Source: a virus. Taken from it: a DNA stretch of 21,804 bases. Each line of letters starts with the position of its first letter. The stretch's first letter is position 1. Made by a program: the position numbers and the translations under genes. The stretch spans positions 1 through 21,804 of IMG/VR virus record IMGVR_UViG_3300005664_000116. One strand, 5' to 3'. The notes below the pieces were generated by a model. The model worked only from the letters and a program-made list of their open reading frames with translations. It was not told the DNA's origin and searched no databases. Shown one piece after another: positions 1 to 21,804 of the stretch.

Positions 1-828
1 TTCCATCGGTTCGCGAGCGTAGGCAATCATGTCGCTGAACTGGTCGCGCAGCAGATCGCCTTCCTGTCCGGGCGGGATCATCATGCCGCGAAGACCGGAA
101 ACCAGTTTCACGTCGTCCCAATCATCGAACAACTGAATGGTCGCAGAGCCGTCAAGGTGCAGATCGCCGTCAGCGGTGAGGAAGCCGACTGCAATTTTTC
201 CTTCTTCGGTCGACGAATACCAGCCGAACGCGTTGGAGTTGCCGGTGATTGCAGCCTGTTCGCCAGACACGGCGCCGTAGGCCGTGAATTCAACGACCGA
301 ACGCGACGCGGCAGTCTTGGTTGACGGCACAGTGGACGTTTCGGCCCAGCCTGCAATGTCGATGGCCGTGACGGCTGAAGTGACGCCGTTTATTTTCAGT
401 CCGCCATCGTCGGCGTTGTAGCGCTCAACGAAACCGTACGTCGAAGCGTCAATGCCTTCGTACGCAAGTTCGTGGTTCACTGAAGACGAGCGCCATTGCT
501 GGATTGGATCGTTCGACGCCGACTGTTCGCCTTCGTCGTCGTACCATTCGAGAATGAGGTTGGAAAAATTTCCAGAGTCGGGAATGTCTGCGCCAATGGG
601 CGTGCCGTTGATCTGGCCTCCGGAAATCTTGATCCGCGTGACGTTGAAGTTTTCGGCAAACTCAAAGTTGCCAGTCGTGCGGTTGGTCGGAACGCGAATG
701 ATGGTTTCCGGGTTTCCCGTTCCAACCAGCAGGACGTTGGTGTTGCTGGCGTAGCCGAGCCCCATGACTGCAAGGTCTGCGCTGGCCTCTGCGCCCGAAC
801 GCAGAATGATTGTCGATACGTCGCTCAT
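1..828 (-). CDS. Tail protein, probably fibre or baseplate-peripheral (partial, 3' end outside window)
   Basis: An open frame runs without a stop from ATG at 828 to base 1 (276 codons), so the C-terminus lies beyond the left edge. The start is supported by GGAG about 9 bases upstream and by close spacing (14 bp) to the TAA of the preceding tail gene. The protein opens MSDVSTIILRSGAEAS and is rich in Asn, Thr, Gly and Asp with almost no Cys, typical of beta-structured phage fibre or adhesin proteins. Around residues 200-235 it reads GWYSSTEEGKIAVGF, then LHLDGSATIQLFDDWDDVKL, which looks like the end of a fibre shaft followed by an alpha-helical tail region (about 235-276). I do not recognise a named family. 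Its place last in the fibre block, after two receptor-binding candidates, suggests another peripheral tail component. That it is a real gene is sure; the role is inference. Confidence 0.75.
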   Translation of the reverse strand, partial: MSDVSTIILRSGAEASADLAVMGLGYASNTNVLLVGTGNPETIIRVPTNRTTGNFEFAENFNVTRIKISGGQINGTPIGADIPDSGNFSNLILEWYDDEGEQSASNDPIQQWRSSSVNHELAYEGIDASTYGFVERYNADDGGLKINGVTSAVTAIDIAGWAETSTVPSTKTAASRSVVEFTAYGAVSGEQAAITGNSNAFGWYSSTEEGKIAVGFLTADGDLHLDGSATIQLFDDWDDVKLVSGLRGMMIPPGQEGDLLRDQFSDMIAYAREPME

Positions 829-842
829 GAAATATTTCTCCG

Positions 843-3137
843 TTAAGCCGCGAGGCGATTGATTTTAGCAGTCCAGTCCAGCGGAGTGGAGGTTGCTACA
901 AAGGTGAGGTATCCGCCGTCGGCGGTAGCGGTGAAAGTTACGTCCGTGCTGGCGAGTGTGTTACCTTCGCCAGCGATGACTGCGAGCGCGACTGCATCGC
1001 CGCTTTCGAGACGACGCAGGATGAGCGTTCCCTTGAAGCGACGGATGAGGCCAGTGTTCTGCACTGCAACCGCGTCAATCTCGAATATTTCCTGACGACG
1101 CGGCTGCACAGTGAGGCGCGGGCCAACCTTGTTGACAGTGGCGCCGGTGGTGAATTCCAGATCAAGATCGTTCTTTGGGCGAACGCGGTATTGCGTCAGG
1201 AATTTTTCGTACTCGGAACGGTCGAACGTGATTGGAGCGTTCTGAAGACGCGCCCAATTCTTGCTGTCCCACGTGAACGATACCGCCGCGCGCCAGCCGC
1301 GAACGTTGAAGGCAATGTTGGTCACGCCCGCCAGATCGTAGTTGCGCAGTCCAGACGAGGCAATGATTTCGCCGTTCTGAACCTTGTAGAGATTGGCTTC
1401 CGTGATGAGGCTGTAGGAATCGAATTCGTCGTCACCGCCGACAAGCTGGAAATAATCCCCGACGATTTCAGCCGAGTTTGCTTCCGTGAGCGTGTTGAGG
1501 TTTTCGAGCGCCGCACGGTCAGCCGCCTTGATGCGGCCGTTCTTGCCAAAGGTGAGCGAAGAAATTTTCGCGTTGTCGAGCGGCTGCGATCCGTTGACGC
1601 CAAGGCCCACGCGAATGACGGCGCTTGTGTTGACGGGCTGCGTTCCGGACGCCGTAACCCTGCGGCCATCGGCAATGAGATAAAAAATACCATTGTCGAA
1701 ACCGAACAGGAACGGCACAGGCTTGTTGAGCGGAAGTTCGCCCGTCATTGGAACCAGCGTGACTTCCGCCGTGGCGTAGCCGTCCTGCGACGAGACAAAC
1801 TTGAGAACGTTGCTCTCGACAAACAGCTTGAACGCGTCGCCAGAGTATCCCGACGGGTTGTAACCGAATTCCAGAACTACGTCGTTGTCGCATGTGCCGG
1901 TGCGAATAATTTCCCCGGCGATGGACCACGAGTTCGACAGGAAACCGCCAGCGTACAGCGGAATGGTGGCTCCCGCGTAGTCAGCCGCAAGATAGTTGCC
2001 GGTCGCCCAGCCCGCCCAGAATTTTTTCCCTTTGACAATCGTGGACGTCAGCGTTCCCGTTTTCGTGAAATCTGCGCTGTTGGTGAGAATGTCGTCTTCC
2101 GGGTCAGTTCCGCCCGCACACACCATCGCCATTGCAATGCCGGGCACTTTCGGACCGAACGAACCTTCGGAAATAATTCTCTGTCCGCCGAGCGCTGTAT
2201 CCAGATCGGCAACCAGCGTCACGCCAGTATCGACTCCAGCAGAACGCAGGCGAAGACCAACTTCGTTGTTGCCGGGACCAATCTTAGAGCCGTCAGGGAC
2301 AACCACTTCATTGTTGGCTCCGAAAATGACGCTGCCTTGACCGGCAGTCGTGACAGTTGTCGATCCGGCAGGCCACAACCAGTTGTCAGGGCGAAGCAGA
2401 ACGGCTTTTGATCCAGCATCCGTTGCACCGCCACGGAAAATAATCTCTCCACGCGGCAGAACGTCCAGATCATAGACGCCAACCCAGCCGGAAGCCGTCC
2501 ACTGCACGCTGCGAAGGTCTGGCGTCAGAGCCGACACGACTGCGCCGCTCTCAACGAAAATATACGGACGTTGCGTTGGGCGGGCCACAGGCTTTGCAAA
2601 CATGCTGACTGCGCGCGAGCAACGCACGCGGCCAGAAGCGTTTGCCGTGAGCGCCGCCGTGCCAATCTGCACGAGAACTTCCGATCCCCAGCGTTCGCCC
2701 CACGTTTCGTTGTTGGGCGGCTTGCACAGGAACAGCCCGGCAGTCGTCATCTTCATCACGGCGCGCGTGTATAGGTCGAACAGGTAGAGATTATTTCCTG
2801 CACGAACGGCAATCATGCCTTCAGCCGCGTGCGCGTTGGTGACTGCATCGACAGCGAGCGGACCCCAAATGCGCAAAATTTGCGGACCGTAGTGCGGGAC
2901 TTCCTTGCGAACCGGTTCGGTCGCATCGATGAGTTCAACGGCGCCGGTGCGGGCAATGACAAACATGCACGATGGCGCTCCCGTCTTGACGGTCGGCGTC
3001 TGCGTCTCGTTGGCGACGCCAGAAGCGCGCCAGAATTCCCGCCACAGACCAACGTCCTGATCGCGAGCCGTATCCCAGACAACAGCCGACAGAACGTCAG
3101 TGTAATCCAGCGTAATCTTGGAACCTGCGAAATCCAT
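843..3137 (-). CDS. Large tail protein with propeller-like repeats and a LamG/ConA-like lectin domain (764 aa)
   Basis: The start ATG at 3137 has AAGGA 8 bases upstream. Residues about 55-300 contain short beta-rich units of propeller type, for example CMFVIARTGAVELIDA and MIAVRAGNNLYLFDLYTR. Residues about 350-545 look like a concanavalin/LamG jelly roll: a segment TGNYLAADYAGATIPLYAGG, then alternating strands with DAFKLFVESNVLKFV and FLFGFDNGIFYLIADGRRV, closing with an alpha-helical AADRAALENLNTL. The last 200 residues are beta-rich and unassigned. Both the propeller and lectin parts match the order and local wording of the 1043-aa protein encoded just upstream, so the two are paralogues. 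LamG/ConA domains in phage tails usually bind glycans, so a role in host-surface recognition is likely but inferred. No enzymatic motif or signal peptide is visible. Confidence 0.8.
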   Translation of the reverse strand: MDFAGSKITLDYTDVLSAVVWDTARDQDVGLWREFWRASGVANETQTPTVKTGAPSCMFVIARTGAVELIDATEPVRKEVPHYGPQILRIWGPLAVDAVTNAHAAEGMIAVRAGNNLYLFDLYTRAVMKMTTAGLFLCKPPNNETWGERWGSEVLVQIGTAALTANASGRVRCSRAVSMFAKPVARPTQRPYIFVESGAVVSALTPDLRSVQWTASGWVGVYDLDVLPRGEIIFRGGATDAGSKAVLLRPDNWLWPAGSTTVTTAGQGSVIFGANNEVVVPDGSKIGPGNNEVGLRLRSAGVDTGVTLVADLDTALGGQRIISEGSFGPKVPGIAMAMVCAGGTDPEDDILTNSADFTKTGTLTSTIVKGKKFWAGWATGNYLAADYAGATIPLYAGGFLSNSWSIAGEIIRTGTCDNDVVLEFGYNPSGYSGDAFKLFVESNVLKFVSSQDGYATAEVTLVPMTGELPLNKPVPFLFGFDNGIFYLIADGRRVTASGTQPVNTSAVIRVGLGVNGSQPLDNAKISSLTFGKNGRIKAADRAALENLNTLTEANSAEIVGDYFQLVGGDDEFDSYSLITEANLYKVQNGEIIASSGLRNYDLAGVTNIAFNVRGWRAAVSFTWDSKNWARLQNAPITFDRSEYEKFLTQYRVRPKNDLDLEFTTGATVNKVGPRLTVQPRRQEIFEIDAVAVQNTGLIRRFKGTLILRRLESGDAVALAVIAGEGNTLASTDVTFTATADGGYLTFVATSTPLDWTAKINRLAA

Positions 3138-3161
3138 GAAATAATTCCTTCGTTTGCTGGA

Positions 3162-6100
3162 TCAGTTGAACTCAGAACGCCAGTCGAGCATTCCGCTGTT
3201 GAAACCGCCGCTTGGACGCAAATAATTCTCGAACACGTTCGTCTGGATTGTGAACAGTTGATCCGCAGGGTGTTCGACCCACACTGCCAGATTGTTGGTT
3301 CCGGCAATCGGCTCGATACGAATATTTACCGAGTCGTCGCCAACGCAGTTGTGTTCAACCGGCGTGACTGCAATTGAAGGCCACGGCGGCACGTAACGGT
3401 TTTCCGGGTCTTTGCCGGGCTGCGGGCTGATCGTGTGGTAGCCGTAATGCCAGAAGCCATATTTTCTTATGTCAGGCATTCCGTTGGTGCGGAAGATTGA
3501 GAGCGCCTGAATGGCCGGGCGCGACCACTCCGCCAGAAGGTCGGGGTGATAATTTACGTACGCGGCCCAATCAGCGCCAGCGAGCGTTGTCACATCGGTC
3601 GGCGGTGCAACTGGCGACGGCTGCACGTTGTAAGTTCCGTTGCACACGTGCGGCTCAACAGGCTTGGGATCATCCAAGACGGGGCAGACAGTAATGTCCG
3701 TGTCGATTGTGCCGGTCGTGTCGGGCGGAATTTCAATGACGGCGGCGAGCGTTTCCGTAATCGTGTTGGTGCCCGCGTTGTATTCCTGATAGCTGCCGCC
3801 AGCGTTCGTGACGAAATAATTCTCGTTCGGAGTCGACGCATCGAGAACCGTCGATACTTTCTCACGCATGCTGATGGGCGGGAAAGAAGCCCACGTTCCG
3901 TCAGCCGTGCCACACACCATGTTTCCCGCGCGCAGCGACACGTCATTCACATCGAGAGACGGAATGTTGGAGTTGTCGGGCAGGAAATTATTCGTCATGC
4001 GGAAACGCTCGTACTGGTAGACGCCGTGGTCGGTCGCCAGCGCCAGCGTTCCAGTGATGGGGTCAATGTCGATTGCGCGGATTTCCTCCGGCGACGCGCC
4101 GAAGTGGAATTCGTCCGCGCTGCCAGTGTTGGTGAAAAATTGGCGCTCCCAATCCAGCATCGTCTCAAGCTGGTTGTCGGTCGGAGGCGTCCAGCACCAG
4201 CGCATGAGCGCAATCTGTCCTTCGAACGGAGCAGCAGGCGTGCGAACGCCGCGACCAATGTAGAGCGAGCAGGAAGCGTTCTGCACGCCGCGATAGTTTG
4301 CGGCCAGCGTCGGCGTGAAGGTGTACGCCATAAAAAATACGCCGTTGTAGCTCACCATGAGACGGTTGCCGCGCTTCACGATTGCAAACAGCGACCACTG
4401 ATTATTATCCACGGCGTTGAACGACACCATGGTAATGACGTTTCCGTTCGAACGGTGCGTGACCTTCAATGCAGTGCGCGCGACGGCGGGCGTGTCCGGA
4501 TCGGCGTTGGTTTCGACTTCATCAATCTCGACGCGCAGATAGTCTTCGTTTGCGTCGGAGGACGAAATCTCGAACAGGACTTGATTGGTCGTCGTCGCAG
4601 GAATTTTCGCCCAAAACGGAATGCACCAGCCGGTTGCAGGAAGGCTGATGGTGTTGGCGCCGTATGCAGCAGAGAAATAATTGCCTGATGCAAACGGTCC
4701 GTAGGCTTTCACCTTGGAGACGAGCGCTTCGGGAACAGTGCCGTTCTGCGTCAGGCTGGTTGCACGGCCAGAGCGATCAAGCGTTTTCGAGTTTGCGAGC
4801 CACGCGCCCTTGCAGTCGCCAATGAGCCAGCCGGAAGACCAGTCTTCCGATTGCATTGCGACCATGCCGCGATCCGGGTCAGTCTTGTTCTCGATGACGC
4901 GAGCCAGAATGAGTTGCGAGGATGAATTTTTCCACGCGGCTGCAATTGTGCTTCCGTGCGCAGCGACCAGAACAGGATGCGAGCCGTTGGAATAGACGGG
5001 CAGGCAGAGCTTGTTGACGTTGGCGGCGCGCGTCTTGTACTCGTACAGCGGCGCAATGAAGCCGTCGTTGTCGAGGAATTCCGAGTCGGACGAAGCGAAC
5101 AGGGTTTGCGGGCGGAACGCCTTGATAGCGTCTTCGCCAGCCATGAAAATATCCCCGTACGGAGAGCACGCAACGTCAGTGAACGCGTTGTCCTGTCCGA
5201 CAAGCAGCACAGTGCGCGACGGCGTAATCACGTAACCGTTCGTCTCGCCAACGGCTGCAACGTAGTTGCGGTTGATGCCAGTGAGCGGATCGACGAATGA
5301 GGCCGACGAAATGCCCGCAGCAATTTTTGCCACGTCACCGAACAGCGCAGAGCCGACTGCGCCCTGACTGTTGATGGAGCCAACGTTGATGGCTTGCGCC
5401 GTGTCGTTGCGTTTCGAAACTGGCGTCGAGTAGCGGTAGCGGAACTGTTCGGTGAAAAAATATCCCTCGTCGTTCGGCAGATCGAACAGCATGAGGCCGG
5501 TTGCCGACGCAATGAGAATGACGCCGTTGCGCGCGTCAACAGCAGTCGGCGCGGCGCGAAGCCAGCGGTCAGGGCCGTAGGTGAACGTCATCCAGAGCGC
5601 AAGGTTCACATCGTCCGCGTCGTAGATTTGCAGCTTGTCGGTGCGGGCGACAATGAGAGCCGTGGACGGAAATTTTCTTTTCACGCCGCGAACGGTCGAG
5701 GCCGCTTCGTGACGCCATGACACTGCACCGAGCCGGTCGCGCCAGCTTCCCTTGTCAGCATCGAGGCGCGTTTCATACACGCACGTCGCTACAATGTCGG
5801 CGTTGTCGTCGAGCGACTTGTTGATTGCGGCCAGCACAAAGTCATCAGCTTCCGAAACGCCATAGACCTTCGATCCGGCGCGGCCAATGATTTTTTTCTT
5901 CACGTCCACATCGTCGTGACCGAAGATGACTGTGTCTTCTTCATCGACAGTGACGGCAACGCCGGTCGGGTTGTTGGAAATGTCCTTGGTGAAATAAATG
6001 CCGTACGTCGGCGCGTTGTGGTTTGTGATGGACGGAAGCTGACGCGATCCCCACGGCGCGCCAATCTTGAAGGATGCCTTCAAGGAAAAATCGTTGTCGT

Positions 6101-6293
6101 ACGTGTCGAAACCCGGAGCGATACCGCCGTGGTCGTTGACAGGCGCAAACGGGACAACGGTATCGGCGCCGGTCGCAATTTGCAGCCGGTGCGTAATTAC
6201 GTCCCAAAACGGTTCGCCTGCAACCGGTGCTTCGGCAGGATCATTGATAACAGCTTCACCGAGACGGAAAGTGATGTGATAAGGGCCGTGCAT
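3162..6293 (-). CDS. Very large tail protein with propeller-like repeats and a LamG/ConA-like lectin domain (1043 aa)
   Basis: ATG at 6293 has GGAG 8 bases upstream and follows the previous TGA by 3 bp. Residues about 200-470 carry propeller-like strand units (ALIVARTDKLQIYDA, GVILIASATGLMLFDLPND, SPYGDIFMAGEDAIKAF). Residues about 495-715 form a LamG/ConA-like region (SGNYFSAAYGANTISLPATG, then LMVSYNGVFFMAYTFTP, then SLYIGRGVRTPAAPFEGQIA). More propeller-like units follow (IRAIDIDPITGTLALATDHG). A Pro/Cys-containing linker near residue 880 (CPVLDDPKPVEPHVCNG) precedes a C-terminal part with YVNYHPDLLAEW and YGFWHYGYHTIS, faintly like the PDL...HY repeat found in some bacterial surface proteins. 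This is the largest gene in the window and its shared domain order with the 764-aa neighbour marks a duplication. I infer a receptor-binding or tail-fibre role; the exact position in the tail cannot be told from sequence. Confidence 0.8.
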   Translation of the reverse strand: MHGPYHITFRLGEAVINDPAEAPVAGEPFWDVITHRLQIATGADTVVPFAPVNDHGGIAPGFDTYDNDFSLKASFKIGAPWGSRQLPSITNHNAPTYGIYFTKDISNNPTGVAVTVDEEDTVIFGHDDVDVKKKIIGRAGSKVYGVSEADDFVLAAINKSLDDNADIVATCVYETRLDADKGSWRDRLGAVSWRHEAASTVRGVKRKFPSTALIVARTDKLQIYDADDVNLALWMTFTYGPDRWLRAAPTAVDARNGVILIASATGLMLFDLPNDEGYFFTEQFRYRYSTPVSKRNDTAQAINVGSINSQGAVGSALFGDVAKIAAGISSASFVDPLTGINRNYVAAVGETNGYVITPSRTVLLVGQDNAFTDVACSPYGDIFMAGEDAIKAFRPQTLFASSDSEFLDNDGFIAPLYEYKTRAANVNKLCLPVYSNGSHPVLVAAHGSTIAAAWKNSSSQLILARVIENKTDPDRGMVAMQSEDWSSGWLIGDCKGAWLANSKTLDRSGRATSLTQNGTVPEALVSKVKAYGPFASGNYFSAAYGANTISLPATGWCIPFWAKIPATTTNQVLFEISSSDANEDYLRVEIDEVETNADPDTPAVARTALKVTHRSNGNVITMVSFNAVDNNQWSLFAIVKRGNRLMVSYNGVFFMAYTFTPTLAANYRGVQNASCSLYIGRGVRTPAAPFEGQIALMRWCWTPPTDNQLETMLDWERQFFTNTGSADEFHFGASPEEIRAIDIDPITGTLALATDHGVYQYERFRMTNNFLPDNSNIPSLDVNDVSLRAGNMVCGTADGTWASFPPISMREKVSTVLDASTPNENYFVTNAGGSYQEYNAGTNTITETLAAVIEIPPDTTGTIDTDITVCPVLDDPKPVEPHVCNGTYNVQPSPVAPPTDVTTLAGADWAAYVNYHPDLLAEWSRPAIQALSIFRTNGMPDIRKYGFWHYGYHTISPQPGKDPENRYVPPWPSIAVTPVEHNCVGDDSVNIRIEPIAGTNNLAVWVEHPADQLFTIQTNVFENYLRPSGGFNSGMLDWRSEFN

Positions 6294-6296
6294 TCG

Positions 6297-7724: not shown

Positions 7725-8675
7725 CTACTCCGCTCGCGCCGTGTAACGCGCCACAGTGATTGTCCCGGCGAGTGACGGCGCGTCGTGGGGGAATTCCACA
7801 GGCAGAGACGAAATGCCATGCAGCACAACGTTGATGGGAGCCTGCGTAAGAAAAAATTCGCGAAGCTTTTCCAGATCAATGTCCGGGTTTTCCTCGACGT
7901 TGTAGAGCAGCAGCACGCGCGACGTTGGGAAGTACAGCGGCGTTGACACTTCGGCGGCGCGAACGCCAGAGAACACTGTCAGCAACCGGTTGCGCGAAAC
8001 GAGGCTGTAGCGAATAAAATTTTCACCGTCGTTCGACCACAGCGGTTCGACAGCGAGTTTGGCGTTGAGAATCCAGCCAAGGAAGTTTAGCCCTCCGTAG
8101 GTGGAGCTTTCCTCCCAATACATTGACGTGTACTGCGCCAGACGCCAGTAGCCTTCGGTCGACAGTTCGTCAGACAAAAATTCAAAGCCAAGCATGTTGG
8201 CGTTCTTGACGAGAAACTGCCTGCCAATGCGGACGCGATCAGTGATGGTCGCAAAGGTTCGCTCTCGCGTGTTCTCGCCAGTGATGCGGTCCCAATATAT
8301 TTCAATCTGGTCTTCGGGGATTTCGCGCGGGTCGTCGCTGATGTTGGCGAGTCCAGCGGCAGTGAGCAGCGGCGGCAACTCGCGATCCGTCAGGAACACG
8401 TAGGACAGGGCGGCGCGAACGTTCGAAAGCTGTTCGCCGTTGATGATGAAATAATCACCAATGTCGCGGCGGTACAGCGAACGCATGCGGCCAAGTTCGC
8501 GGCGAGGCTCAGTGACAAAGTTGTGCTCAACCACGTCCCACGCCAGCATGAGGGACGAGAAAAATTCATTGTCAGCAAGCGCAGGAGTCAGCAGGCGCTT
8601 GTGAGCGACCTTGTGAGCCCTGACGGCGAGCGTGGCGGAATCACCGACGTAATCAATCTCTACAATGGTGGTCAT
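7725..8675 (-). CDS. Putative baseplate wedge protein following gp6/gpJ (316 aa)
   Basis: The start ATG at 8675 overlaps the TGA of the gp6-like gene (ATGA), indicating translational coupling. The protein is soluble-looking and aromatic-rich, with a distinctive block around residues 165-215 (GYWRLAQYTSMYWEES, then YGGLNFLGWILNAKLAVEPLW) and a C-terminal region about 230-315 with LLTVFSGVRAAEVSTPLYFP and LEKLREFFLTQAPINVVLHG. Position directly after the gpJ-like wedge protein matches P2 gpI or T4 gp7/gp8 placement. I cannot see a diagnostic motif for either, so the family is left open. An acyl- or glycan-binding role is not indicated. It is most likely a wedge or fibre-linker component that connects the inner baseplate to the fibres encoded downstream. 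Confidence 0.6.
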   Translation of the reverse strand: MTTIVEIDYVGDSATLAVRAHKVAHKRLLTPALADNEFFSSLMLAWDVVEHNFVTEPRRELGRMRSLYRRDIGDYFIINGEQLSNVRAALSYVFLTDRELPPLLTAAGLANISDDPREIPEDQIEIYWDRITGENTRERTFATITDRVRIGRQFLVKNANMLGFEFLSDELSTEGYWRLAQYTSMYWEESSTYGGLNFLGWILNAKLAVEPLWSNDGENFIRYSLVSRNRLLTVFSGVRAAEVSTPLYFPTSRVLLLYNVEENPDIDLEKLREFFLTQAPINVVLHGISSLPVEFPHDAPSLAGTITVARYTARAE

Positions 8676-10222
8676 GCCGAACGCTCACCGTACACACACG
8701 TCAGACTGACGTTGTTCAGCTTGACGTAGCTGTAATTATTTACAGTCATGTCCACCATTGGCGCGGCCAGCTTGACGTGCGTCACGTACGGCGCGCTCGA
8801 TTCCTCGGTCGTGAGGATTTCGTAAATGTCCGAGCGATAGATATTTCGCCCAATGGAGCCAAGCGTCGGCTTGAGGCTTTCGCGCAGCGCAGTCTCAACC
8901 GCATTTTTTATCGCTTGCAGGTTCGAGTTGGGCTTGCAGTAGATTGTCGCCGTCACATCGAGGATGACGGGCGTCGGGTCTTTGCGCACCAGATGCACGC
9001 CAATCATCGATCTTTCAGTCAGCCATTTGACGAACGTGTTCCACTGGTCGGTTGACCACGGAATTGTCGACGCCGTAAGCACTGACACGTGCGCGAGGTT
9101 GAATAATTTCGGATCGTTGGGATCAATGTCCTGCTGTCCGAGAACTGCGCAGTCAATCACGTCGTCGTAGGTCAGCACCAGCGACTTGTACTGAGCGCGC
9201 GTAACGGCCTTGCCGCGTCCAGAGAAAAGCGTCGGAGCGTTGACGCGATAAAATTCATGGTCGCGTTCATCGCCGCCGCCAAGCGAAGCAGTCGTGGTCA
9301 GGCCAGTGATGACAGAATTGGTCAGGCATTTGACGGCAAGGCCAATCGTCGGGAATGCGCCTTGCGCTCCATCCGTGCGGGCGTAGACGAATTTGACTTC
9401 GGCGCCAGCCGGGGGAACGTCGCCATAGACGCCGTTGCCGAAAATAATATCCGCAGCGCCTTTGGCGGTTGTCAGATCGATGTAGACCTTCTGTTTCGGA
9501 TAGCGCCAGAGGCCATCCTGCACGTTTGTCCACGGCTCGTTATTGATGAAGCACTCAAGGTCTTCGTCCGACGTGGTGAAGTTGGACATGCCGACTTCGT
9601 AGCGCTGGTGAATTTTTCCATTCGCCGTGAAGGTTTCCTCCATCACGGTGCCTTGGTGCAGCACAATGCCCGCCTGTTGCGCCTGACCTTCGTTGAAGAC
9701 AATCTGGTCGCGGTTGAAAAATTTAGCGCGGCCGACCGACCATTGCGTGTAGGCGGGGATGACGTGGATTGCATCGAGGTTTGCGTTGTTCAGCGTGACG
9801 CGGACTGACGCAGGTTTTTTCCTCAACAGGCGAACGCCAAGCATGCGCGCAATGGCAAAGATGGAATTCGGCAGGCGCGCCGTGTCCAGCATGGTTTCCT
9901 GCGCCGCGCGCACGACCGCAGTCTGGTTCTGCGCAATGCCTGACGCAATGGCCGACAGAAGCAGGTTGCCAGTAGACGATTGGGAAGCGTCGCGCCAGCT
10001 ATCGGACTTGGTGACTTCCATCTGAAGCGCGCTGAAAATTTCCTCGAAGTCAGGCGTCACGTTCTCCAGCGCAACCGGCGTCGGCGCGTTGGCTTCCATG
10101 TACGCTCTGTACCATTCCGCAATGGTGTCTTCGGTAATATTTCCTAGCGCCACGCCAGAGTTGGAAAGCTGGCTGTGCAGGTATGCGGCGATGGGGCCTG
10201 AAACGCGATCATAATAGCTCAA
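8672..10222 (-). CDS. Baseplate wedge protein, T4 gp6 / P2 gpJ-like (516 aa)
   Basis: This is the conserved wedge protein that forms the ring around the tube and joins gp25 to the outer baseplate. Recognisable features are the N-terminal helical region (residues about 85-145, with SATGI-like LLLSAIASGIAQNQTAVVRA), the mid-region FGNGVYGDVPPAGAEVKFVY near 265-285, and the family hallmark GGGDERDHEFYRVNAPTLF followed by GRGKAVTRAQYKSLV (about 315-355). The C-terminal part (about 420-505) is the usual alpha/beta domain ending the family. Length is between P2 gpJ (about 300) and T4 gp6 (660). The start is TTG at 10222: a strong GGAGG lies 5 bases upstream and there is no closer ATG. The gene ends in an ATGA overlap with the next wedge gene. 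Confidence 0.9.
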   Translation of the reverse strand: MSYYDRVSGPIAAYLHSQLSNSGVALGNITEDTIAEWYRAYMEANAPTPVALENVTPDFEEIFSALQMEVTKSDSWRDASQSSTGNLLLSAIASGIAQNQTAVVRAAQETMLDTARLPNSIFAIARMLGVRLLRKKPASVRVTLNNANLDAIHVIPAYTQWSVGRAKFFNRDQIVFNEGQAQQAGIVLHQGTVMEETFTANGKIHQRYEVGMSNFTTSDEDLECFINNEPWTNVQDGLWRYPKQKVYIDLTTAKGAADIIFGNGVYGDVPPAGAEVKFVYARTDGAQGAFPTIGLAVKCLTNSVITGLTTTASLGGGDERDHEFYRVNAPTLFSGRGKAVTRAQYKSLVLTYDDVIDCAVLGQQDIDPNDPKLFNLAHVSVLTASTIPWSTDQWNTFVKWLTERSMIGVHLVRKDPTPVILDVTATIYCKPNSNLQAIKNAVETALRESLKPTLGSIGRNIYRSDIYEILTTEESSAPYVTHVKLAAPMVDMTVNNYSYVKLNNVSLTCVYGERSA

Positions 10223-14115: not shown

Positions 14116-16538
14116 TAGTAGGCTCCATTTGCAATAGCGAACCCGATATCATCCATCGGCACTTCCGACGGATCGAGCCGTGGAGGCGATGCTGGTGTCG
14201 GCGCCGGAGGACGCGGGGGAGGCGGAATATTTACATTGACGACCGGATCAACCATGCCGGGCGTGCGCGGGATTGAGACAGCATCGATCGATGGCGGCGC
14301 AGCAGCAGACATTGTTGCCGACTCTGATCCGAGATACGGCTTGATCGACAGGTTTGAAGCCTGTTGAGCGTAGGTCATATTATTTCCAATCAGACCGTTG
14401 TTCTGACTGATTGCCTTGTCACCCCAAAATCCAGCGGAAATCGCGTTCGGATTTGCTTCCAGACCTTTGATGAACTCGTACGCCTTTCCTGCGCCCATGA
14501 AGTGAGCGTAGTAGATTTCCTGCGTCGTCGGCTCGCGACCAAGCTTGCTTCTGAGGTAGTCAGAATTTTCCTTGATGAGCAACGCGCCCAGCGTGGCGTT
14601 GGACTTTGCGTTCATCCTGTCGTTGACCAGTCCGAGACGCGCGCCGTGCTTGGCGTACATTTCGTCCCACGTACCCGGCATGAACTGGAACAGACCGCGC
14701 GCTTTGGAATTCGGATTGGCGGCGTCGGGGATAAAATTTGATTCGCGTTTGGCAATCGCCATCATGGCGTCAACGTTGACACCTTGCGCGGCGGCTGCGG
14801 CGCGAACGTGGTATTCGCCGGTCGACTGAACCAGAGACGTAGCAGCGGCGCTTCTAGGCCCGGTTGATGCCGTAGTTGCTGCGGGAGCCGGGTCCGCCGG
14901 TCTAGGTCCGACAATCAGGCCAGCCGCTTGCTTGCGATTATTTATTTCCCCGTCCAGCTTTGCGACGACACCATCCACTTGCAGAATGGCGGCTTGGATA
15001 TCCTTGTAGGATTGCGCGTAAGCCGAAACGTCTTGACCGCTCGCCTTCATTGCGTCGTACGTGGCAATGAAACCCTTTGCGTCAGCGATTTGGCCGAGAG
15101 CGTGGTCACGCGCGGCCACCAATATTTTCAGTTCATCGTCAGCGAGGTTTGTGTCTTTCCCCGAGACAATGTTGTTGAACAGGTCTTTCGCGCGTGCAGC
15201 CTTGGACTGGCCGGGAATTAATTCCCACGCCGCATCAAGCAATCCAGTGACCCAATTCCACACGGCGTCACCGACACCGCTCATCCAATCCCAAACGTCG
15301 CCAGCCATGCCAGCAACCCATTTGCCCGCGTTGTCGAGGCCCGTCGCCAGCGATGTGCCCAATCCGCCAGTGAAGGAATCGAACACGCCCAAGAAGAAGT
15401 TGCCCAAGGACGAAAACACAACGGGCGTCCACTCTCCGATAAAGCCAATGACATTTTTTCCAATGTCCCACAGGATGCCGGGGAGTTGTTTGACGCCTTC
15501 CCAAATCATGCCAAGCAGAGCCTTGAAACCTTCGCCTGCCATCTGACCGATTTTTTTCCAGTCGGCATTCTTGATGAAGTCGCCAACGCTCGCAAACCAG
15601 CCGTCAATCTGTTCCTTGAAGTCAGCGTAGACTGACGTGACAATGCCGGTAAGACCGCCGACGACTGCGCCGACCGCAGTACCGACGACAGGAATGGCCG
15701 AACCGATTGCAGCGCCAGAGAGTGCGCCTGTGCCAGCGTTCAGCAAATAATCCGAAGCGCGAGAATCAAGCAGACCGCCTTCGCCTTCGTTCATGCCGAA
15801 GAAAGACTGGCCCTGCTTGGCGCGAATGGAATCGTAACCCTGCTTGAGGCCGACAACGCCAAGCGCCGCGCCAGCGCCGCCCGCCAGCAGGCGACCGCCA
15901 ACGTTGAGAATTCTTCCGCCCACGTTGGGGATTGCGCTCGTCGGCTTGAACCCGGCAGGCAGACGCTTGATTGCAGGACCGATGACCGGCAGCTTTGTTG
16001 CAAGATTGGTGAGCCCTCGGGCGCCCATCAACGCGCCAAGTCCGCCAAGCTTTAGAATATTTCCTCCGGCTCCGAGAAGTCCGCCTTGGCGGTTCCACGG
16101 CAGCAAGCCTGCGCCGCCATCGGCAATCTTCTTCAGAAGGTCGTTTGTCTTCTTCCACGAGGAAATAACCTGACGACGCTGTTTGATTTCGCGGATTTGC
16201 GTAATCTGGCGGCGTTGGTCATCAATCTGGCGGTGACGGCGCGTGTCTTTCGCAAGCTGCGTCGTGGCGGATGCAGCGTCTTCGGAGTGTTCAGTAGACT
16301 TGCCAATGGTGGCGGCAATTTTTTCCTGAACAGACATTGCCTTCTTTTGCTCACGGCGTTGATCTGCCATGGCGGAAGCCGCAGTAGCAGACGCGCCAGC
16401 GCTACGACCGGAGGCAGACGAAGTGATTGCGCCATCAGTCGTGTTGCGAGCACGATAGGCGACCAACGTGTTCAAACGTCCGCCGGTGCCTTCTTCACCA
16501 GCGGCGCGTCTAACCTGTCCTCCGAAAATATTCGCCAT
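14115..16538 (-). CDS. Tape measure protein with C-terminal lytic transglycosylase (SLT) domain (807 aa)
   Basis: The tape measure fixes tail length and is expelled into the cell envelope during injection. Residues about 55-155 are highly charged and helical (DTRRHRQIDDQRRQITQIRE). Residues about 155-220 and 225-250 are Gly/Leu-rich. Hydrophobic segments at about 264-308 (ALSGAAIGSAIPVVGTAVGA and following) and about 350-388 (VIGFIGEWTPVVFSSLGNFF) could insert in the inner membrane. Residues about 580-700 are an SLT domain with AIAKRESNF, whose Glu599 is the catalytic residue by family rule, then ARGLFQFMPGTW and a later LGREPTTQEIYYAHFMGAG. The C-terminus is Pro-rich (PPPPRPPAPTPASPP). ATG 16538 follows the chaperone stop by 3 bp. 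Position right after the two-frame chaperone is the classic tape measure position. Confidence 0.85.
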   Translation of the reverse strand: MANIFGGQVRRAAGEEGTGGRLNTLVAYRARNTTDGAITSSASGRSAGASATAASAMADQRREQKKAMSVQEKIAATIGKSTEHSEDAASATTQLAKDTRRHRQIDDQRRQITQIREIKQRRQVISSWKKTNDLLKKIADGGAGLLPWNRQGGLLGAGGNILKLGGLGALMGARGLTNLATKLPVIGPAIKRLPAGFKPTSAIPNVGGRILNVGGRLLAGGAGAALGVVGLKQGYDSIRAKQGQSFFGMNEGEGGLLDSRASDYLLNAGTGALSGAAIGSAIPVVGTAVGAVVGGLTGIVTSVYADFKEQIDGWFASVGDFIKNADWKKIGQMAGEGFKALLGMIWEGVKQLPGILWDIGKNVIGFIGEWTPVVFSSLGNFFLGVFDSFTGGLGTSLATGLDNAGKWVAGMAGDVWDWMSGVGDAVWNWVTGLLDAAWELIPGQSKAARAKDLFNNIVSGKDTNLADDELKILVAARDHALGQIADAKGFIATYDAMKASGQDVSAYAQSYKDIQAAILQVDGVVAKLDGEINNRKQAAGLIVGPRPADPAPAATTASTGPRSAAATSLVQSTGEYHVRAAAAAQGVNVDAMMAIAKRESNFIPDAANPNSKARGLFQFMPGTWDEMYAKHGARLGLVNDRMNAKSNATLGALLIKENSDYLRSKLGREPTTQEIYYAHFMGAGKAYEFIKGLEANPNAISAGFWGDKAISQNNGLIGNNMTYAQQASNLSIKPYLGSESATMSAAAPPSIDAVSIPRTPGMVDPVVNVNIPPPPRPPAPTPASPPRLDPSEVPMDDIGFAIANGAY

Positions 16539-16541
16539 TAC

Positions 16542-16808
16542 CTATCGCCTCTTGCTTGCCATCATTGCGTTGATGCGGTTGGCTTCCGCTACTCTACGTT
16601 CGTACTCCTGTTTCTCGCGCTCCGCCCTTTTTTCATGGAGGATGTGAAGCTCGAAGAACATTTTCGTTTCTGTGTCGTCGCCAACCTGAATGTGCCGGTC
16701 CGCTTGAAGAACGAACAGCAACTCAATGATTGACGCTTCCCTATACGCCGGGAAAGAAGGCCGAAATGTTGACGACGGCGCGGGTACGTTCCGGCCTCGG
16801 CAACACAT
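16542..16808 (-). CDS. Tail assembly chaperone, downstream (T-like) part, probably made by frameshift
   Basis: An open frame in the +1 (equivalently -2) register relative to the 435-aa gene that overlaps its 3' end; the frame is open from about 16877 to TAG at 16542. The part that looks like real protein begins near the upstream stop (AYREASIIELLFVLQ) and ends in a charged helix (HEKRAEREKQEYERRVAEAN). Such short helical second products between chaperone and tape measure are the T part of lambda G/GT-type systems. As an independent gene it could start at ATG 16808 (AAGG 5 bases upstream) or at TTG 16865, but residues encoded upstream of 16750 in this frame (MCCRGRNV) look like out-of-frame sequence. 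Joined at the CCC codon near 16750, the long product would be about 501 residues. The coordinates given are the stand-alone choice. Confidence 0.6.
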   Translation of the reverse strand: MCCRGRNVPAPSSTFRPSFPAYREASIIELLFVLQADRHIQVGDDTETKMFFELHILHEKRAEREKQEYERRVAEANRINAMMASKRR

Positions 16809-18048
16809 CGACCCCTTGAGCAGTTTTTTCCTTGATATCGTTGATTTCCTCAACGAGTTCTTCAATCGTCTTGGTCAGTGCTTCGTCTTCCAGTTCTTCG
16901 TTGAGCTTGATTAGTTGCGCGGCGCGTTCTTCCAGAGTCGCCAGAACCTTCTCAACATCGAATTTTTTCTTGTCCAGCGTGACGGGCACAAACTCGGTGA
17001 CGCCGTGGTAGAGCTTCATCTTCACGTCGCGAGCAGTTTCGAGCATTTCGTTGCCCATCACGTCCACGCGTTCCATGCGCTGACGGATAGTCTCGCCCGG
17101 CAGCGGCTTGAAATAACGAGAGTGCTGATAGAGCCACGTCATGCCATCGTCGACCACATCGAAATCGACGTTGCCGCTCGAATCCAGATCGTACATGCGC
17201 GGCCAGTCGAAACCTTGCTTGCTGGCTTCGAGGAATATTTTCTCATGCTCGTCGCGGTTCAGTTTGGTTTCTTCGAGCATGGTCTGCGTGATTGTCGTCA
17301 CGTCGTTGATGCCATAGCGCGAAGTCCACTTCACAACCATGGGCGACTTGACGAACGACTTGGCGCGCAACCAGTACAGCACGTAGTAAAAATCTTCCTG
17401 CGTGAGAACGCGCGGATCGACCGACACGACAGACGCGATAACGTCTAGCATGGTGGAGATTGAGTTTGAGCGCTGGACCGGCGACAGCTTGCGGAGTTCA
17501 CGCACCACAAACGGACGCGCGAACATTTCCTTGAAGTCGTAGAAAATATATCCGCTCGGCAGATCGATCATTTCCCACTGCGGGCCGTTCGGCACGCCAA
17601 TGTAAGGGCTCGTCTTTGCGTACACCGGCTGACTGAGCACGAGTTCAGCCATTTGTCGCGTGGCTTTCACTTCTTCCGGCTCGGGTTCTTCTTCCAGCTT
17701 TACGCTCTGCGGCGGTGGCGGCGGTGGCTGCACAAGCTGGGGAATAATTTCTTCTTCCGACGGTCCTTCAGGAACTTCAGTCTCTACTTCGACCAGTTGC
17801 GTGCTTTCCATTTTTTCCACAAACGCCTGCCATCCGGCCAGCGAAACCTGAGCTTCCTGCGCGTTGCGAATGTAGAGTTCGATTTCTTCCTTCAACCACG
17901 GCTTTTCGATTGCAATGGCTTCCAGACGCGCCATCACTTGCGGAATGGAACTGGCGTGCGCAAACTGATCAGTCTGCCCGCCTTCCTTGATAATGTCAGC
18001 GAGCAATTTCTCGCCTTCTTCCTTGCCGGTGACTTTCGTGACTTTCAT
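16741..18048 (-). CDS. Tail assembly chaperone, T4 gp26/gp51-like hub-assembly type (435 aa)
   Basis: The start is ATG 18048 with AGGAGA 7 bases upstream; an upstream extension to 18144 exists but would run into the preceding gene and reads as unlikely basic sequence. An N-terminal helical domain (about 1-95) is followed by an acidic, proline-rich linker around 105-130 (QPPPPPPQ, EEEPEPEE). Residues about 163-250 have the pattern of T4-type hub assembly proteins: LPSGYIFYDFKEMFARPFVV, then NSISTMLDVIASVVSVDPRV, LTQEDFYYVLYWLR and SFVKSPMVVKW. The C-terminal 70 residues are a coiled coil (VLATLEERAAQLIKLNEELE). Its place between the tube-fold genes and the tape measure, plus the overlapping second frame, points to the chaperone that binds the tape measure. 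This is larger than lambda gpG (140 aa), so extra functions are possible. Confidence 0.75.
   Translation of the reverse strand: MKVTKVTGKEEGEKLLADIIKEGGQTDQFAHASSIPQVMARLEAIAIEKPWLKEEIELYIRNAQEAQVSLAGWQAFVEKMESTQLVEVETEVPEGPSEEEIIPQLVQPPPPPPQSVKLEEEPEPEEVKATRQMAELVLSQPVYAKTSPYIGVPNGPQWEMIDLPSGYIFYDFKEMFARPFVVRELRKLSPVQRSNSISTMLDVIASVVSVDPRVLTQEDFYYVLYWLRAKSFVKSPMVVKWTSRYGINDVTTITQTMLEETKLNRDEHEKIFLEASKQGFDWPRMYDLDSSGNVDFDVVDDGMTWLYQHSRYFKPLPGETIRQRMERVDVMGNEMLETARDVKMKLYHGVTEFVPVTLDKKKFDVEKVLATLEERAAQLIKLNEELEDEALTKTIEELVEEINDIKEKTAQGVDVLPRPERTRAVVNISAFFPGV
16749..16758 (-). other. Candidate programmed frameshift site of the chaperone gene
   Basis: Minus strand codons TTC TTT CCC GGC lie just before the chaperone stop (GTA TAG). 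A +1 slip of the proline tRNA from CCC to CCG would join ...ISAFFP to AYREAS... of the second frame. An alternative slip site is the A6 run at 16824-16829 (GAA AAA ACT), where AAA can re-pair after either +1 or -2 movement. The late site is preferred because the zero-frame protein still looks natural up to the stop. No experimental support; inferred from frame openness. Confidence 0.4.
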
Positions 18049-18067
18049 GTCTCTTCTCCTGAATTTT

Positions 18068-18739: not shown

Positions 18740-18819
18740 TGACCTTTTCCGTGGGTATTATTTACCCTATTAGAAGATTGGCAACGCGTGAAAAGGTGAT
18801 GTTGCGCTAGAAGGGTGAC
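18740..18819 (-). promoter_or_regulatory. Intergenic regulatory candidate with palindrome
   Basis: This is the only sizeable non-coding gap in the module. On the minus strand it carries GGGTA-AATAA-TACCC (18767-18753), a 5-bp inverted repeat whose loop with the flanking TA makes TAAATAATA. That is reminiscent of the A/T-only core of T4-type late promoters (TATAAATA) but is not a match. It lies 14-28 bases upstream of the 223-aa gene start. An earlier TTGCCA-N6-TAATAG offers no properly spaced sigma70 promoter. Either promoter, operator or processing hairpin is possible; low certainty. Confidence 0.35.
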
Positions 18820-19443
18820 TTAACCGAAAAATTTTCGGAAAGAGTCTACGGCCGAAGCTCCGTCGATACCAAGTCCGACACCGAGCAGGCCAAAACTGTG
18901 CATGTCGTATTCCAGCACCATGTCGATGCTGATGATGGAGGAATTCGCTCCATCGAAGTCAAATGAACCAATCGACTTGGGCCATGCGTTTGACAGCACA
19001 AGCGATCCGACTTCCTTGTTAGTCTCGTCGAACGGCGTAATCGTGACCGTTGTCGAGTATCCCGGCGCGCCAGCAATGCCAAGATCGAAACCGCCGAAAT
19101 TTTTATTCGCTCCGGACGATCCAGACATGGAGTTGTCGACAAACTCATGCCAAGCGCGCAATTTTTTATACGTGCCCATCTTGCGATCTTCGACAAACCG
19201 CACCGTAACAGACTCGAAGGGCTCGCGCTTGCCACGGAATTTATACTGGTGCCCGAACAGATCGACAGGGATTGTGCCGACGCTCATCCCCGGCCACGTG
19301 CAGGACATTGCCTTCACAGTGAGGTCACGGTTTTCAAGCAACTCGAAACCAGTGCCGGGGATGGAGGCAAACCGAACAGCGAACTTGTCTGACGCCAGAG
19401 GCGAATCAACTTCGTCGTGAATGTCTGCCAGCGAAGGGCGCAT
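18820..19443 (-). CDS. Tube-like protein, second tube-fold gene (207 aa)
   Basis: ATG 19443 lies 6 bp after the tail tube stop; only a weak GAG precedes it, so translation is probably coupled. Core segments match the neighbouring tube protein: LTVKAMSCTWPGMSVGTIPV (against LNIKCQQVSLPGMSIEPMEM), FGHQYKFRGKREPFESVTVR (against LHGQVLRFPGRKTFPGTLST), then VRFVEDRKMGTYKKLRAWHE (against TTFVEESNVGTQRVLRTWHE). The C-terminal part adds VTITPFDETNKEVGSLVLSN and a Gly-rich tail. The match is close enough to call it a paralogue of the tail tube protein. In T4 the tube-fold relatives gp48 and gp54 start the tube, so this may be an initiator or a differently located tube ring. The insert of about 30 residues (SGSSGANKNFGGFDLG) is specific to this copy. 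Confidence 0.8.
   Translation of the reverse strand: MRPSLADIHDEVDSPLASDKFAVRFASIPGTGFELLENRDLTVKAMSCTWPGMSVGTIPVDLFGHQYKFRGKREPFESVTVRFVEDRKMGTYKKLRAWHEFVDNSMSGSSGANKNFGGFDLGIAGAPGYSTTVTITPFDETNKEVGSLVLSNAWPKSIGSFDFDGANSSIISIDMVLEYDMHSFGLLGVGLGIDGASAVDSFRKFFG
18824..18838. repeat. Perfect 7-bp inverted repeat at the end of the 207-aa tube gene
   Basis: Reads CCGAAAA-A-TTTTCGG on the plus strand. The one-base spacer is too short for a stable hairpin, so a protein-binding palindrome or simple consequence of the codons Arg-Lys-Phe-Phe-Gly is more likely than a terminator. It is also one of the A/T-only blocks described for the whole window. Confidence 0.45.
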
Positions 19444-19449
19444 AAAATA

Positions 19450-19971
19450 TTACTCGAACGGGTGGTTGTTCGAACGCCACGTGTCGTAGGTGAACGTGGC
19501 TTGCACCAGCATGACTTGCGAGCTTTGCCCGTCAAGCTGAATGTCCGACAGTTCCGACAGCCAGAGGCCGAAAATATCCACTTCATCGCGCAGAACGTTT
19601 GCGTTGTCGTAGACGTTGATGCGAGCGGTGACCGAGTAGTCACGCTTGTATCCAGTCGACTTGGACGTGTTGGTCGACTTGATTTTTTCGTGCCACGTGC
19701 GCAGGACACGCTGCGTGCCGACGTTCGATTCTTCCACGAACGTTGTCGAGAGCGTGCCGGGGAACGTCTTGCGTCCGGGGAAGCGCAGCACTTGTCCATG
19801 CAGCGCCATTTCCATCGGCTCGATGCTCATGCCCGGCAGGCTGACTTGCTGACACTTGATGTTCAGCGAGTCAGCATTGAGTCCTGCCGGGAGATTTCCC
19901 AGCAGAAACTCAAAGTTCATCGCGGGCATCGGGTCTTCAAGGTTGTTCAGGTCGTTGAGGGTTGCCCTCAT
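19450..19971 (-). CDS. Tail tube protein, T4 gp19-like (173 aa)
   Basis: This is the main candidate for the inner tube of the contractile tail. Length is near T4 gp19 (163). The pattern is MNFEFLLGNLPAGL, LNIKCQQVSLPGMSIEPMEM, LHGQVLRFPGRKTFPGTLST, TTFVEESNVGTQRVLRTWHE (the W-H segment is a family feature), then YSVTARINVYDNANVLRDEV and the closing strand GLWLSELSDIQLDGQSSQVM followed by FTYDTW. ATG 19971 has AAGGAG about 8 bases upstream, after the sheath stop by 28 bp. The order sheath then tube is standard. Nothing is truncated. Whether this copy or the 207-aa one is the major subunit cannot be proved here; length and position favour this one. Confidence 0.9.
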   Translation of the reverse strand: MRATLNDLNNLEDPMPAMNFEFLLGNLPAGLNADSLNIKCQQVSLPGMSIEPMEMALHGQVLRFPGRKTFPGTLSTTFVEESNVGTQRVLRTWHEKIKSTNTSKSTGYKRDYSVTARINVYDNANVLRDEVDIFGLWLSELSDIQLDGQSSQVMLVQATFTYDTWRSNNHPFE

Positions 19972-19999
19972 GTGAAAACTCCTTCAGAATTTTTTCGCA

Positions 20000-21804
20000 T
20001 CAGGCCGCGAGTTGACGGACGATTTCTTGGATGGTGATCTGTCCATCAGCAACGTTGGTGCGAAGGACGATTTCACGCGTCGGCTGGACGAAGATCAGCA
20101 GAATGTCGATGTTGATCCTGCCGACAGCTTCATCCGCTTCCTTGTTGTTGTCGCCGTCGCACTTCACGAGATAGAACGACAGACCTTCGCCCTGCTTGAT
20201 GGGCTCAAGGTACATGTTGATCCGCTGCGTGATGTTGAAACGCGTGTTTGCGTTCGCAGGGCGCTTGAGGAAATTTTCCAGATAGATACCGACTGCCGTT
20301 TCGATTTCGGACAGCGTGCGGCGGATCGGAAGGATCGACAGCGCGCTTTCCTGCACTTGCAGCGTCTTTGCATCCCAAAAGACAATCGAGCCGCCGCGAT
20401 GCTTGATGATCGGAGAAATACCGAGCGGGCAAAGCAGATCAAGATCGGCCTTCGTGTAGTCTTCCTGCACATCAACGGCGCGATCCATGATACCGCGATT
20501 GAGGCCAGACGGGTCTTCCCACATCTTGTTGCGGTCGTTGAACGCAATAATTGCGGCAATGTCGCCAGACGGCGGAATGAAGCGGCCGTTCGGGGAATAT
20601 TTCGACGTGACCTTGATGTACGGCGCGCAGATTGTGCCATACGAGTTGTCGGCAGCGAGAGTGAACTGACGATACTCGCGAAGCGCGGCAGTTTTTTGCG
20701 CAGTCTGCGGAGCGTCGAGAAGCGCGAAACAACCGCGACGCGTCTTTGCGACTTCCAGCATCTTGCGATGCACAGTGTCCGAAGAATAACCGCAGTTGAT
20801 GAGCAGCTTGACGTTGTAGCGCGTCGTGTCGAGGAACGCTTCCCACGCGGTTGCAATCATTGCATCCGTGATGGCGCTTCCATCCGTGCCGTTGGCGAGC
20901 CACTGGATCGACGAATGCACGTCGAACGTGGTTTTCGCAGAGTCGCGCCACGCGCCGCCAAAACGGACAATGCCATTTTTTGCGTACTTCGTGTACGGCG
21001 CCTGTTTGACGCGAACATATTTTGACGCGAGTTCGCTGTCGTTGACGACGCTTTCAATGTTGGTCTGCTTGCCGTTGCCGTCGATGCGGTCCTGCATCGT
21101 GACGTTGAAGCTTTCCACCGGCGAAGAAGAGTCCGAACGAAGGAACACTTCAAACGTGAACGAGGAAATATATGCAGACTCGGCAGTTTGCGCCGTAACA
21201 GTCGCAGTCGGAGGCGTAGAGCCGCCCATTGCCACGGACGCCACGAGCGCCGAACCAAAGTGCGTGTAGCGAACGTAGATTTCCAGATCGGTGATTGCCG
21301 CAGCGGTCGGGCTGGTGCCGAGAGCGTTGTCCCACGTCTGCGAACCGAAGCGGAAATAATATCCGAGCGGACCAAACTTGTTGCGCAGAGCGAGGATCAG
21401 CGCGTCCATGGTGGCCTTGTGCGACGTTGCATACGTCACAACGGATGACAGCGAAACGCCATTGAGCGTGACGTTGACAGTGTGGCCGGTCGCAAGGAAG
21501 CCTGACAGGGCAATCTTGGCTGACGCTTGGCTGGAATATTTCACATCGCGGATGCGATAGCCAACGTCATCGCCGTGAACGCCGGGGGTGAGCGCAAACA
21601 CGTCGAGCAGTTTCGCTTCCGGCCAGTAGATCACAGCGACTTGCGTAGAACCGCCCGTCAGAGTGAACTCGGAAAAAATCGGAAGCTCAACGCCTTGCGG
21701 CGAAACGATGCGAATGTAGTTGGAGCCTTGCGTCGTCGTTTCCGTGACCAGAGCAACCGTGATGCGGTTGTCCACGTTGGCGCGCAGGCTGGTTTGGATT
21801 GCAG
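20000..21804 (-). CDS. Tail sheath protein, T4 gp18-like (partial, 5' end outside window)
   Basis: The outer contractile sheath that shortens to drive the tube into the host. The frame stays open to the right edge (residues AIQTSLRAN precede a GTG at 21775), so the GTG is an internal valine and the start lies outside. About 600 residues are visible. The C-terminal domain (last 210 residues) has the sheath pattern: WEDPSGLNRGIMDRAVDVQE, LDLLCPLGISPIIKHRGGSI, VFWDAKTLQ, ILPIRRTLSEIETAVGIYLE, KRPANANTRFNITQRINMYL, then LVKCDGDNN and NIDILLIFVQPTREIVLRT. The middle holds gp18-like insert domains (AYISSFTFEVFLRSDSSSPV). The stop is TGA 20002-20000. Length is like T4 gp18 (659). Placement directly before the tube gene agrees. 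Certain in family; only the N-terminus is missing. Confidence 0.92.
   Translation of the reverse strand, partial: AIQTSLRANVDNRITVALVTETTTQGSNYIRIVSPQGVELPIFSEFTLTGGSTQVAVIYWPEAKLLDVFALTPGVHGDDVGYRIRDVKYSSQASAKIALSGFLATGHTVNVTLNGVSLSSVVTYATSHKATMDALILALRNKFGPLGYYFRFGSQTWDNALGTSPTAAAITDLEIYVRYTHFGSALVASVAMGGSTPPTATVTAQTAESAYISSFTFEVFLRSDSSSPVESFNVTMQDRIDGNGKQTNIESVVNDSELASKYVRVKQAPYTKYAKNGIVRFGGAWRDSAKTTFDVHSSIQWLANGTDGSAITDAMIATAWEAFLDTTRYNVKLLINCGYSSDTVHRKMLEVAKTRRGCFALLDAPQTAQKTAALREYRQFTLAADNSYGTICAPYIKVTSKYSPNGRFIPPSGDIAAIIAFNDRNKMWEDPSGLNRGIMDRAVDVQEDYTKADLDLLCPLGISPIIKHRGGSIVFWDAKTLQVQESALSILPIRRTLSEIETAVGIYLENFLKRPANANTRFNITQRINMYLEPIKQGEGLSFYLVKCDGDNNKEADEAVGRINIDILLIFVQPTREIVLRTNVADGQITIQEIVRQLAA

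Follow-up and report, generated by a model that had tools for sequence, protein, structure and literature searches.

Evenly spaced A/T runs, kept through synonymous codons, form a lattice along a GC-rich phage contig

Introduction

Why should a GC-rich phage sequence be interrupted, at fairly even distances, by short runs made only of A and T? The question is raised by virus contig IMGVR_UViG_3300005664_000116, which was analysed over its whole length of 21,804 bp (the window). A first-pass annotation, made from the letters alone, had described such blocks as enriched and evenly spaced through a phage genome of about 57% GC, and had proposed that they bind a nucleoid-like, packaging, replication or transcription protein, or are targets of a DNA modification. 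The contig proves to be a phage fragment, not a whole genome, and its GC content is 55.9%. Here we ask how regular the blocks are, at what level they are laid down, and what might read them.

Results

The Contig and Its Genes

Long minus-strand ORFs make up 99% of the window (as codons). The 20 genes of the contig either belong to the tail and baseplate or have no assigned role, and together make up a contractile-tail module that comprises sheath, tail tubes, baseplate wedge and hub, a PmgG-like protein, a large tail protein with a transglycosylase domain, and a tail-fibre-like protein. The genes referred to below are as follows.

8672-10222, minus strand: baseplate wedge gene (PHROG 219, 1.3e-56; 32% to Rhizobium phage RHEph12)
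14115-16538, minus strand: tail gene with a transglycosylase domain, tape-measure-like (PHROG 4067, 5.5e-31)
18820-19443 and 19450-19971, minus strand: two tail-tube genes (PHROG 45, 2.5e-23 and 1.6e-24)
20000-21802, minus strand: tail sheath gene (Pfam PF04984, 3e-15), open at the contig end and carrying part of the lattice

The best relative of the sheath is that of Rhizobium phage RHph_I42 (29% identity). The nearest named phages, at about 22%–37% protein identity, are the Rhizobium RHph_I42 group, Motura, PaBG, Lu11, BcepSauron and PhiXhv-12, which are jumbo or large myoviruses. Judged by the kinship of its sheath, tube and T4-like baseplate genes with those of jumbo phages, the contig is assigned to a jumbo-type myovirus (contractile tail), known from this fragment. 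No near DNA match was found among phages by megablast, no second copy or exact window DNA elsewhere in IMG/VR, and no close relative in single-protein scans of IMG/VR and GTDB genomes.

Several other features of the window may be recorded here. The minus-strand ORFs 843-3137 and 3162-6293 (764 and 1,043 aa) adjoin the tail-fibre-like gene; their products have no tblastn match in phages, and are probably receptor-binding or fibre proteins. A short basic reading frame on the minus strand between two tail genes (16542-16740; about 66 codons if it starts near 16740) is the only candidate on the contig for a small basic protein, and has no family match. Some palindromes are rare or absent, with GCCGGC found 0 times (13 expected), CTGCAG 0 (11), CCGCGG 0 (6.5) and CGATCG once (10), and GANTC occurs at about half the base-composition expectation. 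The missing palindromes could reflect restriction avoidance and would then offer a clue to the host.

Number and Length of A/T Runs

The window holds 124 A/T runs of at least seven bases, 28 of them in the first 5 kb, and 141 of at least six. Shuffled bases give 38 ± 5 runs of at least seven, a first-order Markov model 35 and a third-order model 56; for runs of at least six, random bases give 88 and the third-order model 114. A stricter null permutes synonymous codons within each gene, so that the protein and the per-gene codon usage are kept. In 500 such shuffles there were 55 ± 5.4 runs of at least seven (maximum 71) and 98 ± 7 of at least six (maximum 115).

The run lengths are bimodal. Runs of 4 to 11 bases, the longest in the window, number 165, 31, 17, 49, 49, 11, 9 and 6, versus 246, 128, 43, 26, 17, 5, 3 and 1.5 in the codon shuffles. 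Measured against these shuffles, near-sites of five bases are depleted fourfold (31 versus 128), whereas runs of 7 and 8 bases are two to three times as numerous.

Spacing of the Lattice

The runs of at least six bases form a lattice, of which examples are listed.

1-21804, no strand: lattice of 141 pure A/T runs of 6-11 bp; centre spacing mean 153, median 149, 5%–95% 65-266, range 31-311 bp
193-199, 389-396, 564-571, 830-837, 1084-1090, 1201-1207, no strand: example runs
1450-1456, 1562-1568, 1680-1689, 1905-1912, 2020-2027, 2171-2178, no strand: further example runs
16533-16960, no strand: widest gap between runs of at least seven (428 bp), with six-base runs inside it at 16628-16633 and 16824-16829
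19689-19987, no strand: among the longest intervals without runs of at least six (centre spacing 306 bp)

The coefficient of variation (CV) of the gaps is 0.46 for runs of at least seven and 0.43 for runs of at least six (0.41 centre to centre), as compared with 0.92–0.95 in every null; for runs of at least six the codon shuffles gave 0.92 ± 0.08, and the lowest of 500 was 0.71. Counts per 1 kb have a Fano factor (variance/mean) of 0.13, that is, 0.13 of the Poisson value. We also drew 141 sites, 5,000 times, from the 624 places at which the proteins permit a run of at least six. The floor of these trials was a CV of 0.73, a Fano factor of 0.22 and a longest gap of 460 bp, versus 0.41, 0.13 and 311 observed (0/5,000 as low). 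Gaps shorter than 60 bp number five, where 42.5 are expected and the lowest trial had 27. Each gap correlates negatively with the next (-0.24, p = 0.002), which points to a slightly tighter control of spacing than if gaps were independent. The distribution is nonetheless broad (gamma shape 5.5), unlike a crystal-like repeat, and neighbour distances have no helical phasing at 10-12 bp (Rayleigh z 2.7, as against 5.9 for the 95% point of the null). None of the other two-letter classes, nor any k-mer of 3-6 bases with adequate counts, is as even as the A/T runs.

Hence the annotation was right that the blocks are both enriched and evenly spaced, and its estimate of about 28 runs in the first 5 kb was exact. 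Neither of the outcomes it had named as refuting, a gap CV close to 1 or run counts no higher than in codon-preserving shuffles, was seen. Its widest gap, about 380 bp near 20600-20975, measures about 372 bp and is surpassed by the 428-bp interval listed above. With counts and gap CV outside all of the nulls, we reject chance, codon usage and Markov composition (through order 3) as causes.

A Threshold at Six Bases

The annotation had counted runs from seven bases upward, and the 17 runs of exactly six therefore provide an internal test. They sit in the long gaps of the longer set. Their median distance to the nearest run of at least seven is 99 bp, versus 45 bp for random points, and only one of the 17 lies within 40 bp of such a run, versus 45% expected. 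For instance, the 6-bp run AATTTT (4602-4607, no strand) is a lattice member in a gap between sites of at least seven. The Fano factor falls from 0.15 to 0.11 when six-base runs are added, and rises to 0.44 when five-base runs are. As six-base runs even out the lattice and five-base runs roughen it, any A/T run of six bases or more qualifies as the element, and the threshold is sharp.

What the Sites Look Like

Lattice sites are found both inside genes and between them, and the following are representative.

830-837, no strand: site AAATATTT, upstream of the start codon of the ORF ending at 828
1201-1207, no strand: typical 7-bp site AATTTTT, preceded by G and followed by C
2171-2178, no strand: typical 8-bp site AAATAATT, preceded by G and followed by C
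3138-3147 and 3813-3822, no strand: GAAATAATTC

No word dominates; the commonest canonical word, AAAAATT, accounts for 11 of the 124 runs. What the runs share is their outline. A at the start with T at the end is seen in 81% (49% in codon shuffles), and the full G-A...T-C bounding in 51% (24% in codon shuffles), whereas the TpA share within blocks, 0.13, is below the 0.178 of codon-shuffled runs of the same class. Flank enrichment is confined to the run edge (G 79%), with no clear signal further out and nothing at four bases. The A-rich/T-rich skew between strands is at background, and A-rich and T-rich blocks succeed one another in random order. The motif GAW6TC occurs 24 times in the 21.8-kb window (1.1 per kb), versus 5.1 ± 1.4 in codon shuffles. 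GA-W6-TC is also several-fold more frequent than CT-W6-AG in most of 150 Pseudomonadota genomes, so the G-A...T-C edge preference is partly general and alone is no proof of a site. Taken together, the A...T symmetry, the G and C edges and the low TpA would fit a reader that probes the narrow minor groove of double-stranded DNA.

The Lattice Is Written by Synonymous Codons

Codon choice switches at the blocks. Lys is encoded by AAA in 59/60 cases inside blocks and 64/245 outside, Asn by AAT in 45/47 and 48/348, and Tyr by TAT in 28/31 and 45/193; the Ile codon ATA occurs 11 times inside and three times outside. Blocks fall in all three codon phases (58, 44 and 31) and ignore gene borders. All 124 runs of at least seven lie at protein-permitted places (124/124), and all ORFs are intact. 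The order of residues adds no sites, since the proteins offer 487 potential sites, versus 484 ± 13 with shuffled residues, and a protein-level cause of the lattice was rejected. From the codon switching and the unchanged number of potential sites, it follows that the pattern is laid down through synonymous positions, while residue order shows no sign of change. These observations support selection at the DNA level, working by way of synonymous codons and alike on the two strands, and they agree with the earlier statement that no gene explains the blocks.

Relatives and Bacterial Genomes

The comparison covered about 110 relatives with protein identity of about 37% or less, comprising ten named phages, about 65 IMG/VR loci recovered by the sheath, two more, and 36 recovered by the baseplate hub. 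No lattice was seen among them; gap CV is about 0.73 or more and run lengths are not bimodal, a few loci being too short or too GC-rich to score. The IMG/VR loci, about 100 in all and distant, came from two-row alignment scans. In 11 relatives put through the same codon shuffle, the ratio for five-base runs is about 0.65–1.15, the depletion being strongest in the studied phage, and runs of at least seven are in deficit, not excess. Most relatives have fewer such runs than codon shuffles give, down to below half, perhaps as an escape from host silencers; in the studied phage such avoidance is seen between sites, alongside the lattice itself. Five whole relative genomes, from phages with proteobacterial hosts, have three to four copies of GAW6TC each in about 190–260 kb, and are without a lattice.

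Bacterial DNA gave a similar picture. The lattice is absent from the 150 Pseudomonadota genomes, a phylum that may not be the host's, and GAW6TC there peaks at about 0.5 per kb; the genome concerned is small, and its reversed control is high as well. Two IMG/VR contigs (314 kb and 195 kb, 51.6% GC) have mildly even runs of at least seven (CV 0.76, 47 sites), and their counts fall steeply from five- to six-base runs, a weak signal that could be codon-driven. No precedent for such a lattice was found in the literature (open-licence papers searched).

Discussion

The lattice is a firm statistical finding on one fragment and one region of a genome, and the mechanism set out here is a proposal. We consider the A/T runs best explained as binding or nucleation sites for an abundant architectural protein of double-stranded DNA, phage-encoded or host-derived, and give this reading a probability of roughly 0.5. 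It is preferred because an upper and a lower gap limit, erased near-sites, a size threshold and a shape-like symmetry coincide: sites closer than about 60 bp, gaps longer than about 310 bp and five-base near-sites off the lattice are all avoided. The protein would recognise a narrow minor groove spanning at least 6-7 bp and would coat, fold or protect the phage genome, be it in the cell, at packaging or in the capsid, with about one complex per 150 bp. Extra sites would be harmful or wasteful. That the reader is a protein, that it is architectural, and that its footprint or spreading length sets the spacing are what we infer. The more specific version, in which the phage lineage wrote a chromatin-like lattice, using synonymous codons to keep one narrow-groove A/T site per ~150 bp and to erase near-sites off the lattice, for a dedicated phage protein that covers the whole genome in evenly spaced complexes, is more tentative, with odds somewhat short of even.

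Some observations count against an architectural protein. Helical phasing, which contact in register between adjacent complexes might produce, is absent; the ~110 relatives without a lattice provide no evidence of conservation; and the spacing is broad. The 20 genes of the contig include no candidate binding protein and no convincing AT-hook protein. The protein-binding idea of the annotation stands in part, in that an abundant DNA-organising or packaging protein is the best fit. Phage transcription sites find no support, the density being far too high for promoters and no strand preference being seen. Its suggestion of DNA-modification targets finds no support, there being no common word and any A/T run of at least six counting.

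Other explanations fit parts of the data. The runs may tag phage DNA as self, for protection from phage or host nucleases or silencers or for recognition in packaging or exchange, in the manner of uptake sequences or Chi; whatever inspects a stretch of a few hundred bp would then have to find a site every time. The strict ceiling of 311 bp on centre-to-centre gaps and the coverage of the whole window speak for this, and its nearest precedent is Karlin's view of even USS spacing (PMC1939737). However, marking accounts for the upper limit only. It needs neither the lower limit nor the depletion of five-base runs, both strong in the window, and known marks are fixed words where the blocks have none in common, so that we think it improbable, if the foremost of these alternatives. 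Slightly less probable is a lattice of this kind in the host chromosome, serving the host's nucleoid protein, to which the phage has adapted. Phages often follow host sequence constraints, but the 1.1 copies of GAW6TC per kb in the window exceed anything in the 150 Pseudomonadota genomes, and the five whole relatives with proteobacterial hosts have a handful of copies each.

Signals for replication, transcription or RNA, such as primer, pause or AU-rich processing sites along the lagging strand or the mRNA, are unlikely. The main genes all lie on one strand, which would allow a strand-specific signal, and RNA processing could conceivably use a site every ~150 nt. Functions at the RNA level nevertheless fail to explain the symmetry of the blocks (A...T, G...C) and a strand asymmetry at background. 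Promoter-like matches are twofold above shuffles, largely through AATAAT in blocks, terminator-like matches are at chance, and there is no Rfam family; sigma-70 promoters with paired hexamers, or intrinsic terminators with a stem and a T run, at each site were rejected, with 16 promoter-like sites for 141 blocks. A search of the window for promoters, terminators, tRNA, RNA families and repeats yielded nothing that explains the lattice. We give still less credence to a functionless mutational process leaving A/T runs at regular physical intervals. It would yield word-degenerate, length-limited blocks, but the ORFs are intact, every block of at least seven is protein-permitted, residue order is unaltered, and five-base runs are depleted, not enriched; moreover, a footprint would not know the gaps. 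Equally improbable is an artefact, be it recoded or synthetic DNA or an assembly oddity. The record is single, with no second copy in any collection searched, collections that may leave out its nearest records, yet it holds a coherent tail module of intact genes with distant relatives (22%–37% protein identity) along most of its length, and spaced synonymous changes cannot arise from assembly error.

If the architectural reading is true, phage genes would carry a second, architectural code nearly free of the protein sequence, and genome organisation would gain a new layer. A phage nucleoid or packaging protein could then be looked for directly, with its required target as the guide. The gap CV and the run-length bimodality of two-letter runs can be applied to all viral contigs to find others.

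Comparison with Known Systems

Several known systems resemble the lattice in part. Nucleation sites of H-NS, MvaT and Lsr2 are likewise A/T-rich and read in the minor groove, with filaments spreading from them (PMC6936261, PMC7002338); none of the 20 genes of the fragment encodes a silencer protein of this type. Their targets are AT-rich regions, however, whereas the lattice consists of isolated 7-8-mers evenly spaced in GC-rich DNA, and these proteins prefer TpA steps over A-tracts (PMC6936261); sites of this type were rejected, as TpA is depleted and A...T ends are favoured in the blocks. Fis sites share the symmetry and the A/T centre with G/C edges, and are read by minor-groove width (PMC4784862). 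The Fis core of 15 bp is bounded by G/C at ±7 and usually has a Y-R step at ±3-4 (PMC4784862), but the blocks have G directly at the run edge, an R-R (GA) step there and nothing further out, and Fis-type sites were rejected too. Helically phased A-tracts and nucleosome-positioning signals are also architectural A/T runs, and the lattice distance is roughly of nucleosome scale. The known prokaryotic phased A-tract signal has a period of 10-11 bp (PMC3940949), and a helically phased array was rejected, multiples of 10-11 bp being absent by the Rayleigh values given above.

The uptake sequences of Pasteurellaceae (USS) and Neisseriaceae (DUS) are similar in being a short DNA signal repeated through a genome. 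They are fixed words, far sparser and chromosomal, whereas the phage lattice is built of degenerate A/T runs, one per ~150 bp and with strong repulsion; an uptake- or Chi-like mark with one fixed word was rejected, the commonest word being as infrequent as noted above and no k-mer being spaced as evenly as the A/T runs. Karlin remarked on how evenly they are spaced and took this to hint at a role in compaction, repair or replication; the spacing is judged not even enough for compaction in the paper cited (PMC1939737). By analogy, the compaction idea put forward for uptake sequences is the nearest precedent of the idea advanced here, though not of the thing itself.
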